A DNA stretch of 56,286 nt from an uncultured Lachnospiraceae bacterium (GTDB lineage Bacteria > Bacillota > Clostridia > Lachnospirales > Lachnospiraceae), in the NCBI GenBank assembly GCA_947086895.1, contig CAMUAR010000019.1, positions 1 through 56,286 of the forward strand, in the 5' to 3' direction. Position numbers and translations under genes: made by a program. Each line of letters starts with the position of its first letter. The stretch's first letter is position 1. Positions 31,018 through 56,286 of the stretch are shown here, piece by piece. The notes beneath the pieces were generated by a model that ran no database searches, was not told where the DNA came from, and saw only the letters and a program-made list of their open reading frames with translations.

Positions 31018-31311
31018 AAAAAAAGTCGCCTCCTTTTCGCACTTCATTGCAGTACGACAAGCGGTGACTGTACACTCACCCGTGTGTTTCGCACTTATCG
31101 AATCGAAGTGATTCCTTGGATGCTGTCTAAATTTCAGCAGACAGCACTTGGCTTCATCCCGAAAAAGCCGAGTCCACGGTTCTCTGCATAGCAGAATATT
31201 TATCTGTACAGTGACTTGTCGCCAGTTTTGATAACTTGACATTCGCTCCACGGAAAACCTGCCCTAAACAGGACAGCAACCTCTCGCTTCTACGCTATCA
31301 ACGTCACAACA
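31018..31311 (-). promoter_or_regulatory. S10 operon leader RNA (candidate ribosomal protein leader)
   Basis: About 294 nt between the mapped-by-eye promoter and rpsJ. Several complementary segments occur on the minus strand, for example GCTGTCTGCTGAAATTTAGACAGC (stem GCTGTCT/AGACAGC) and CCTGTTTAGGGCAGG. Firmicutes are known to carry a structured S10 leader in this place; match to that Rfam family was not tested. Confidence 0.55.
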
Positions 31312-53945: not shown

Positions 53946-54983
53946 TTATCGCTTTGGCATCGGTTTTAAACAGAGCAGTGTTTGTCGGATTGCTTCTAAC
54001 TGGCCGCGGACTGCTTTTGCATCTCCCCTCTTTAGTTTTTTCATTAAACTATCTTCTTTCCACTTAATATCCATACTCCAAAAAGCATGAATGATCGCAT
54101 ACAGATAAGGGTACATTCGTTTTTGTTCTTCCGAAAACGGGCGTTCTTTGTTGTATCCTTCTAAAAATGCCGGAAGAATCACACTTTCTGGATCTTTGTA
54201 TTCCTTTGGATACTCCATCAGCCTTGCCTGAAATACTGCTTGCATCACCGCATCACAATACAAATTGTTATCCCCACAGCGGTTAAAATCAAAAACTCCA
54301 AGATGCCCTTCTTTTGTCTGATACAAATTACAATCGCTGAAATCCCCCTGAACCGCATACCGCGGCTTACTTTTTAAAGGAGAAAGCACTTCCATGTATT
54401 CTTTATAAATTTTTGTAATATTTTCATACAAAGGCTGGTCAATCGCTAAAAACTCTTCTGCATGGGATAAAAAGTCCGTGTATGCAAACAAATCATTATC
54501 CGTAAACGGATCAAACAACACACTGTACTCTACATGAAATTGATTTGCTTCTGCAATATTATGTGTTTTTGCCAATAATTCACCCGCCTTTTTGGCAAGA
54601 CAATCATCAATTTCTGAAAGTTCACCATCCACAAACTCCTCCACTGTTACAATCACAGAATATTTATCGATCCAATACCACTTTGCAAAATTCTGCCCTG
54701 TTTTATATAAGATTGGAGTATCAATTCCCGAATCTTTTAACAGCGCGGCAAACTGACTCTGTCTTTCAATCAATTCTATAGACACATCAGGCTCATTTTT
54801 CAGCCGAACCACAACCGACGAGCCGTTTTGTAAATCCGCTTTTACAATAAGTCTTACTTCCCCAGACTCCAAACCATCTTCCTTCGAATCATATCTTTGA
54901 AGTTCCGTATACGAAACTGCTTTGGAAGGAACATGATAATCCTTTAAAATTGCATCTATAGTACATAAAGAAATCTCCAGCAT
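53946..54983 (-). CDS. Phosphotransferase with aminoglycoside/choline-kinase fold
   Basis: A 345-residue cytoplasmic kinase-like protein of the APH family. The N-lobe (to about 110) ends in a hinge VIVTVEEFVDGELSE; the catalytic loop is YAVQGDFSDCNLY (Gln in place of the usual His, Asp and Asn retained), followed by the metal-binding segment GVFDFNRCGDN. Family members phosphorylate small molecules such as homoserine, choline, methylthioribose or aminoglycosides; the substrate here is unknown. The LSPLKSKPRYAVQGDFSDCNL layout is common in uncharacterised Firmicutes proteins. It is monocistronic, with a GGGAGG site before ATG 54983. Confidence 0.8.
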   Translation of the reverse strand: MLEISLCTIDAILKDYHVPSKAVSYTELQRYDSKEDGLESGEVRLIVKADLQNGSSVVVRLKNEPDVSIELIERQSQFAALLKDSGIDTPILYKTGQNFAKWYWIDKYSVIVTVEEFVDGELSEIDDCLAKKAGELLAKTHNIAEANQFHVEYSVLFDPFTDNDLFAYTDFLSHAEEFLAIDQPLYENITKIYKEYMEVLSPLKSKPRYAVQGDFSDCNLYQTKEGHLGVFDFNRCGDNNLYCDAVMQAVFQARLMEYPKEYKDPESVILPAFLEGYNKERPFSEEQKRMYPYLYAIIHAFWSMDIKWKEDSLMKKLKRGDAKAVRGQLEAIRQTLLCLKPMPKR

Positions 54984-55147
54984 AAAAACCCTCCCAAATG
55001 TTTCGCACCTTGATTTTCTATGAATCTAACAAAAATAAGCAAAATTTTAATTTGATTGTAATATAGTGAATTATTTTTATAAATTAAACTATTATATACC
55101 GCATTTTATAGGCTTTTCAAAAGCTAGATATAATATCTATACACAAG

Positions 55148-55221
55148 TTACACTGTTCAAATATACTTTTCTACAAGACATAAATTACACTGTTCAAATA
55201 TACTTTTCTACAAGACACAAA
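55148..55221. repeat. Two tandem 37-bp direct repeats
   Basis: The 37-bp unit starting TTACACTGTTC at 55148-55184 is repeated at 55185-55221 with a single T/C change. It lies in an AT-rich gap (54984-55340) without a gene. Only two copies with no spacers, so this is not a CRISPR array. Confidence 0.9.
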
Positions 55222-55340
55222 TTATCAAAATATTCACTTTATTTCACTTAATTATAAACTTATTATTATATCATATTATTTATGTTTTTTCAAGCAAAAA
55301 ATGGTATCAATTTTTTTGAAAAAACAGCACCCTTTTTTGT

Positions 55341-55370
55341 TTGACAGAGTATTATTTTTTTTGATACAAT
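55341..55370 (+). promoter_or_regulatory. Strong plus-strand promoter with extended -10
   Basis: A perfect TTGACA (55341-55346) lies 18 bases before TACAAT (55365-55370), which is preceded by TGA, making an extended -10 (TGnTAnAAT form). Transcription would start near 55377, exactly where a stack of hairpins begins. Confidence 0.8.
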
Positions 55371-55376
55371 AACAGC

Positions 55377-55640
55377 ACAAGTTACAGTACAAAAGAAACT
55401 TGTTTTGTAGATAACTTGTTTGTATTTTGGAGCATTGGAACTGACATAATAAGTCTGGTTCGTCCAATGCCTGAACCCAATCTGCGCGCGGCGCGGGCAA
55501 ATAACTACCATAAACAGAGCAGCCAAGCAGAATAAATACAAGGTCAAGATGCTTATACGGAATGTAATAGTTGGTATTAAAGATAAGGTCTTGCAACACG
55601 CTTGGCTGGGGTAGGGAGGAAAAGAGGGTTGAAGGGATAC
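55377..55640 (+). ncRNA. Structured transcript: 5' leader or independent non-coding RNA
   Basis: From the predicted start, P1 pairs ACAAGTTA (55377-55384) with TAACTTGT (55412-55419) and TACAAAA with TTTTGTA inside it. P2 pairs GCATTGG (55432-55438) with CCAATGC (55464-55470), continued by AAC/GTT and GAC/GTC. A GC-rich mini-hairpin follows at 55483-55499. A long arm pairs CTACC with GGTAG, CAGCCAAGC (55519-55527) with GCTTGGCTG, then CAAGA/TCTTG and CTTAT/ATAAG. AACCC (55474-55478) can pair with GGGTT (55627-55631) to close a junction. G-tracts follow at 55607-55636. No terminator T-run is evident, so it may be the leader of the gene at 55691. No known class was recognised with certainty. 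Confidence 0.55.
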
Positions 55641-55690
55641 GAAAAATATTTTAAACTTAAACACCAAAATTAAAAAGGAGGTCAACTGAC

Positions 55691-56281
55691 ATGCCAAACA
55701 ATCTTTTTAAACTACGAACTTTAAAGAAACTTATGGCTGGAATACTGACAATATTTTTATGTATGTCAAAAATTCCAGTAGCAGTATTAGCTAATAACAC
55801 TTTACCAGATTATACTGACACAGGAATTAGAATCGTTAAAGATAATGAAGTTGAATTAGTAGAACAACTGATAAATGAAAAATATATTTTATATTCCGAA
55901 CTTTTATCTACAGAAGATGAAAATAAAAAGAACGATTTACAAAAAAGATATACTATAATATGTCAGAAACTGCAAAAACTTGGAGTAAGTGAAGAGCTCC
56001 TTGAGGATATTCCATTAATAAATAATCCTGAATTTGCTCCTTACGCCACTCTTCCTAGTTTTGAAGCACTGGAGCAATTGTTTAAGTTTGATACATTCTA
56101 TCAATACGGCTATGTTGGGTCAACCGTTTACAAATTTTATAATGTACTGGTTCATGATAAAAATGGAAGTAAATTACATAGCACAAAAAAAGACAGTATT
56201 ATTTTATGCGGCTCTTTATCAAATGTAAATCAACGTGAGTTCGATGAGCATACTTATGCAAAAGTCATATTTCCAGTATGA
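55691..56281 (+). CDS. Small secreted protein of unknown function
   Basis: A 196-residue protein. A signal-peptide-like N-terminus (KLMAGILTIFLCMSKIPVAVLA) is followed by a helical charged region (VELVEQLINEKYILYSELLSTEDENKKNDLQKRYTIICQKLQKLG) and a Tyr/Phe-rich C-terminal half (FDTFYQYGYVGSTVYKFYNVLVHDKNGSKLH). No family is recognised. ATG 55691 follows AAAAAGGAGG at a good distance. Base composition is more AT-rich than the carbohydrate locus. It lies downstream of the strong promoter and structured RNA, which may control it. The stop is at 56279-56281, five bases before the window edge. Confidence 0.75.
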   Translation: MPNNLFKLRTLKKLMAGILTIFLCMSKIPVAVLANNTLPDYTDTGIRIVKDNEVELVEQLINEKYILYSELLSTEDENKKNDLQKRYTIICQKLQKLGVSEELLEDIPLINNPEFAPYATLPSFEALEQLFKFDTFYQYGYVGSTVYKFYNVLVHDKNGSKLHSTKKDSIILCGSLSNVNQREFDEHTYAKVIFPV

Positions 56282-56286
56282 ATTGA

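Follow-up and report, generated by a model that had tools for sequence, protein, structure and literature searches.

The aprE and ompA leaders are structured mRNA leaders that set transcript stability, and raiA, ROOL, GOLLD and OLE are RNA families included in Rfam. Published screens for structured RNAs look for long GC-rich intergenic regions (PMC8723152). The locus described here lies close to the end of the window, by which we mean the whole stretch of 56,286 nucleotides that was analysed, and its central feature is a 233-nt unit that is present twice in its own genome, each time in front of an open reading frame (ORF). The likeliest reading, which we put forward tentatively, is that this unit is a candidate for a lineage-restricted, cis-acting leader RNA. 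The features of the window locus are as follows, P1 to P6 being the helices of a drawn fold.

55341-55370, plus strand: sigma-70-type promoter-like site with 11/12 consensus matches, a consensus match only
55377-55419, plus strand: predicted 5'-terminal hairpin, in the minimum-energy and centroid folds
55412-55644, plus strand: shared unit, 233 nt, with a second copy on contig C61 of the same genome (G000), at 2000-1856 plus 1680-1595, minus strand
55419-55428, plus strand: 5' arm of P1, drawn with 55634-55643; 10/10 pairs the same in copy 2
55432-55470, plus strand: P2 hairpin, 55432-55439 with 55463-55470 and, inside it, 55443-55445 with 55453-55455
55474-55478, plus strand: 5' arm of P3 (AACCC), drawn with GGGTT at 55626-55630
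55481-55497, plus strand: P4 hairpin, 55481-55487 with 55491-55497; 7/7 pairs the same in copy 2
55505-55509, plus strand: 5' arm of P5 (CTACC), drawn with GGTAG at 55610-55614; 5/5 pairs the same in copy 2
55514-55600, plus strand: variable middle of the unit (alignment columns 103-190), where 25/84 columns differ and where the 175-bp repeat of copy 2 sits
55520-55608, plus strand: P6, 55520-55528 with 55600-55608
55675-55681, plus strand: ribosome-binding site AAGGAGG, read in the sequence
55691-56281, plus strand: downstream ORF of 196 aa, with a signal-peptide-like start judged by eye; not an intact gene
56232-56286, plus strand: repeat forming the last 55 bp of the window, common to the ends of contigs C36 and C132, judged by eye

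The promoter-like site consists of TTGACA, an 18-nt spacer and TACAAT, with a TG before the second hexamer, in line with the TTGACA and extended -10 promoter that the first-pass annotation had read at this place. It predicts a transcript start at about 55377, and the unit starts 41 nt downstream of the site. Upstream of the promoter, in AT-rich DNA, a 37-bp tandem repeat is present in 2.3 copies (55141-55224); its CACAAGTTACA is found again at 55376-55386, where the transcript is predicted to start. At the other end, the unit is separated by 46 nt from the ATG of the downstream ORF at 55691. No riboswitch expression platform was recognised: there was no terminator-like site in 54950-56286, and GGAG (55677-55680) of the ribosome-binding site was unpaired at 0.89-0.98 in the predicted ensemble. 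Switching off by an intrinsic terminator or by a masked ribosome-binding site is therefore not indicated.

The gene that follows had been described as one for a small secreted protein. It has a ribosome-binding site, an ATG and a start that looks signal-peptide-like by eye, but the gene is not intact: its last 55 bp are the repeat that closes the last ORF of the window. This 53-55 bp repeat is found at three contig ends (window 56232-56286; G000:C36:1-55; G000:C132:3316-3368, with two differences), as expected of a repeat where the assembly broke, and it probably represents the end of an insertion element. The window protein had no homologue at E 0.001 among 126 candidates, and the model built from its lone sequence was of unusable quality (pLDDT 49.6). 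Contig C90 carries a paralogue of the window gene, an ORF of 334 aa whose product matches residues 49-178 of the window protein at 35% identity and which is not preceded by the unit. This paralogue is the first in a group of three ORFs (334, 263 and 172 aa), each with a hydrophobic start (G000:C90, L112:2678-5204), and it had one relative besides itself in a protein search. On the other side of the unit, a gene of the phosphotransferase family (APH, PF01636) adjoins it at 53946-54983 on the minus strand. Among five other genomes of the genus, two had a match to this kinase-like neighbour, one at 39% and the other, a partial one, at 33%, so that no empty site could be read.

The second copy of the unit was detected by a DNA search of the same genome, on the minus strand of contig C61, at about 83% identity, and no further copy was found there, which gives two in total. 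It consists of a first part, 2001-1878, with 88% identity, and a second, 1680-1595, with 82%, the first extending over 2000-1856 with looser settings. The parts are split by a 175-bp insert (1681-1855 in L004, G000:C61) with 23-bp inverted ends (91%) and 30 matches across the genome, counting itself, many of them partial; these ends and matches indicate that a repeat entered an already existing copy 2, and the insertion lies in the variable middle of the unit. Copy 2 is on the sense strand, upstream of an ORF that also has a signal-peptide-like start by eye, and is 67 nt from its likely ATG (1527), the ORF list starting at 1542. Its promoter-like site, with 12/12 matches, is about 500 nt away, and between the two lies a 255-bp element with 70-bp inverted arms (L004:2154-2408, G000:C61), of which the genome holds no other full copy and one 33-nt match, on contig C10. 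The window and C61 proteins are unrelated to each other. The C61 protein belongs to a family with 99 members listed, itself included; it had no Pfam match at cut-off, a fold search gave no match with an E of 0.001 or lower, and in 250 family genomes it had two matches besides its own, one of them partial, whose fetched loci were without the unit. The unit is thus not tied to either protein family, as both the C90 paralogue and the two relatives of the C61 protein are without it.

With the insert removed, the two copies align across the whole unit with four gapped columns. Substitutions affect 38/229 columns, as 28 transitions and 10 transversions, and are uneven: from 5' to 3', they occupy 8/102, 25/84 and 5/43 columns (chi-square p 0.0002 for blocks chosen after looking). 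In a permutation scan, the crowding in the middle had p 0.0012 and the longest run of identity, of 35 nt, p 0.036. The ends of the unit accordingly look constrained, and this comparison provides moderate evidence for constraint between the two copies. Base composition also sets the unit apart, with a GC content of 0.425 in 55412-55651, as against 0.226 for the upstream flank, 0.261 for the spacer and 0.293 for the ORF, and, for copy 2, of 0.366 and 0.384 versus 0.239, 0.149 and 0.296 in its flanks and ORF; the GC content of the whole window is 0.44, and other non-coding stretches of it reach 0.5.

The arms named in the first-pass annotation are indeed in the sequence, including the 9-bp CAGCCAAGC/GCTTGGCTG, CTACC/GGTAG and AACCC/GGGTT, and single helices are well supported in the modelled ensemble of the window copy. 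In the 5'-terminal hairpin, 55377-55384 pair with 55412-55419 and, inside, 55388-55394 with 55403-55409, its 5' strand lying outside the part common to copy 2. The closing helix TTTGTATTTT/GGGATACGAA has ten pairs, four of them G-U. Pairing of P6 reached 0.97-1.0 in the window copy's own ensemble, and 7/9 of its pairs are kept in copy 2, two of them via G-U, while for P4 both copies give a pairing of about 0.6 in their ensembles. P5 pairs at 0.82-0.84 in the window ensemble versus 0.09 in that of copy 2; P2 has 3/8 outer pairs broken and 3/3 inner pairs kept in copy 2; and P3, which had been seen as an AACCC/GGGTT closure, has 1/5 pairs broken there and a pairing near zero. When copy 2 is folded by itself, P2, P3 and P5 hardly form, and 6/47 of the drawn pairs in all are broken in its sequence. 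The drawn fold is one candidate only, and the evidence for this particular fold is weak.

The claim of much more structure than in an ordinary leader did not hold up against dinucleotide shuffles. Over 55412-55651, taken as the shared unit, the folding energy gave z -0.96 (34/200 shuffles at least as stable), with similar values for 55419-55642 (z -1.10; 28/200) and 55377-55690 (z -1.55; 7/100). Adding the 5' hairpin to the unit (55377-55651) brought z to -2.73 (2/200), a value that was reached by 5/60 random 275-nt stretches of the window, each compared with 30 shuffles. The minus strand of 55412-55651 gave z -2.31, lower than the plus strand (200 shuffles), and its consensus energy was ordinary (z -0.77). 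Copy 2, joined without its insert, gave z -0.02 (200 shuffles). From these models, structure beyond chance is mostly not indicated.

The comparison of the two copies leads in the same direction with regard to covariation in homologs, for which no signal exceeded that of shuffled alignments, two sequences having little power. In the drawn fold, paired columns differ less often than unpaired ones (10/94 versus 32/142, p 0.023, for a fold drawn from one copy), and no pair is changed on both sides. An unconstrained consensus fold has 51 pairs, with seven one-side changes and one both-side change that keep the pairing; its energy is ordinary (z -0.67; 39/150 shuffles as low), and its kept and compensated changes were equalled by 276/400 and 238/400 shuffled alignments, for two copies only. 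A C-G to A-U change at columns 59 and 206 of this consensus fold looked promising but was set aside, as shuffled alignments do equally well.

Known RNA classes were searched for with Rfam release 15. The whole window has one match, an S10-Clostridia ribosomal protein leader at 31216-31300 on the minus strand (84.2 bits). None was found in the leader region at the gathering threshold, and in 55200-55750, at E up to 10, there were 14 weak matches, largely to eukaryotic families, each below its gathering score. The suggestion of a raiA-like or ROOL-like RNA is therefore not supported, as neither these nor the GOLLD and OLE families matched the unit at the gathering or E-value thresholds. In the titles and opening lines of abstracts on orphan riboswitches, ornate RNAs, RNA screens and leader-set stability, the unit is not described; the tables of PMC8040213, a screen of the human microbiome, could hold it.

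Relatives of the unit were likewise restricted to its own genome, both among 98 relatives searched by DNA and among six genus genomes searched by pattern. With a covariance model, the sole convincing match among 295 relatives, 392 genomes of the order and 391 of the class was in its own genome, these samples being overlapping and these searches using stricter filters; one 25-bit hairpin (E 0.06, genome G120) was taken as chance. When 397 family genomes were searched by DNA with E up to 1, at least 288 of them gave a match, its own included, the best one outside its own genome having E 8e-4 among the matches listed. Thirty of these loci, the window itself among them, were realigned, and eight were read around the match, which was short and accompanied by no other part of the unit; we take these short matches in the family genomes as chance. 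In a collection of 84,980 species, which may lack records very close to the window's genome, a 21-mer gave no stretch and a 16-mer gave 57, among which the covariance model had one weak match (13.6 bits, E 2.4); one of these stretches (L065) is of 393 bases only, and some matches are near the end of their locus. These scans need exact words, so that diverged relatives could be missed. Six patterns gave 2, 0, 3, 0, 1 and 0 stretches in viral contigs, with 0/6 matched by the covariance model, and no relative of the unit was found in plasmids and phages.

The proposal of a riboswitch, a cis-acting leader or a free RNA gains from the second same-sense copy and from the uneven constraint, and loses from the lack of an Rfam class and of covariation beyond shuffled alignments. 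A leader, or a new non-coding RNA, is still the best reading because the second copy lies in the same sense before a signal-peptide-like gene and because constraint is uneven. The ORF behind it is unrelated to that of the window, and the GC contrast, the loss of reading frames between copies, the location of copy 2's repeat in the variable middle, the promoter-like site ahead of the unit and the lack of a terminator-like site in 54950-56286 point the same way. Against a leader stand the ordinary energy of the unit, the z of -2.73 for the longer stretch being equalled in 5/60 random stretches, the absence of covariation beyond shuffles, the pairs broken in copy 2, the near loss of P2, P3 and P5 in its ensemble, the distance of copy 2 from its promoter with a 255-bp element between, the lower z of the minus strand, and the paralogue and two relatives of the C61 gene without the unit; two copies are a small sample for this case, and the signal peptides were judged by eye. 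The main rival, which we consider rather unlikely, sees in the unit a non-coding DNA element, duplicated or mobile, or the relic of one, lying before two genes and having no function as RNA. The abrupt ends of similarity between the copies, with unrelated flanks, would fit such an element, as would the repeats near both loci, the AT-rich and repeat-rich stretches around them, and again the ordinary energy and lack of covariation. It is less easily reconciled with a total of two copies in the genome, with the same sense of both and their similar distance before ORFs, or with the uneven constraint. Of seven inverted pairs in 54990-55700, none joins the ends of the unit, though short ends with mismatches may escape this comparison, and by eye there was no sign of a target duplication.

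A free-standing non-coding RNA of about 230-270 nt, starting from the promoter at 55341, cut or ended before the ORF and acting elsewhere, seems more improbable still. The shared part ends at 55644, one base beyond the drawn closing helix, and the downstream genes are unrelated, as expected of an RNA working by itself; yet both copies precede ORFs with ribosome-binding sites, no terminator-like site follows the unit, the only one at copy 2 lies inside it (1689-1673), and Rfam gives no match. That the unit would be a decayed or short protein-coding stretch on either strand is very improbable. The window copy does contain open frames on the plus strand (53 codons) and on the minus strand (107 and 135 codons), but reading frame is not kept between the copies, copy 2 having stops or frame changes in those frames, and substitutions by codon position number 19, 14 and 9 in 78-79 columns each. 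At the protein level, the 53-residue frame had no Pfam match at cut-off, the two minus-strand frames had none in PHROGs, and the longer of them had none in plasmids.

If the unit is a cis-acting leader RNA, it would likely be transcribed as a folded 5' leader from the promoter at 55341-55370, and would adjust, in cis, the level of the downstream protein, possibly through an effect on mRNA lifetime or ribosome loading. One may go further and see in it a new, narrowly distributed class of leader RNA, a folded module, rich in GC, that is duplicated or carried along with secreted-protein genes which are AT-rich and probably acquired, whereby unrelated protein families would get the same post-transcriptional control; taken as a whole, this wider reading is doubtful. 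A leader RNA would mean that two unrelated secreted proteins of one genome are served by a common folded module, as a layer of control shared among accessory secreted proteins, and that an RNA family is seemingly restricted to a very narrow lineage. Otherwise, the locus illustrates how easily long perfect arms pass for an ornate RNA, and how the energy test, the second copy and the shuffled alignments together strip away most of the apparent evidence for structure.

The closest described systems each share part of this arrangement. Like MITE-type repeats, the unit is non-coding, occurs more than once and lies in an AT-rich, repeat-rich neighbourhood; unlike them, it has two copies and no terminal inverted repeat was found, in contrast to the 175-bp repeat inside copy 2 with its 30 matches. 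With raiA, ROOL, GOLLD and OLE it has in common a non-coding, multi-helix drawing, and it differs from them in having no match in Rfam release 15. Its position before an ORF is that of orphan riboswitch candidates and of Clostridial leaders such as S10-Clostridia, and a GC-rich patch in an AT-rich intergenic region is a signature on which published screens rely (PMC8723152); by contrast with these candidates, the unit is without covariation support or a recognised expression platform, and precedes unrelated genes in one genome only. Compared with the aprE and ompA leaders, the conserved part is here the 233-nt unit and not the 5' hairpin, the 5' strand of which lies outside the part shared with copy 2; in line with those leaders, the locus has no terminator-like site in 54950-56286 and combines a promoter-like site, a predicted 5'-end hairpin, a long leader and a ribosome-binding site that is predicted to be open.
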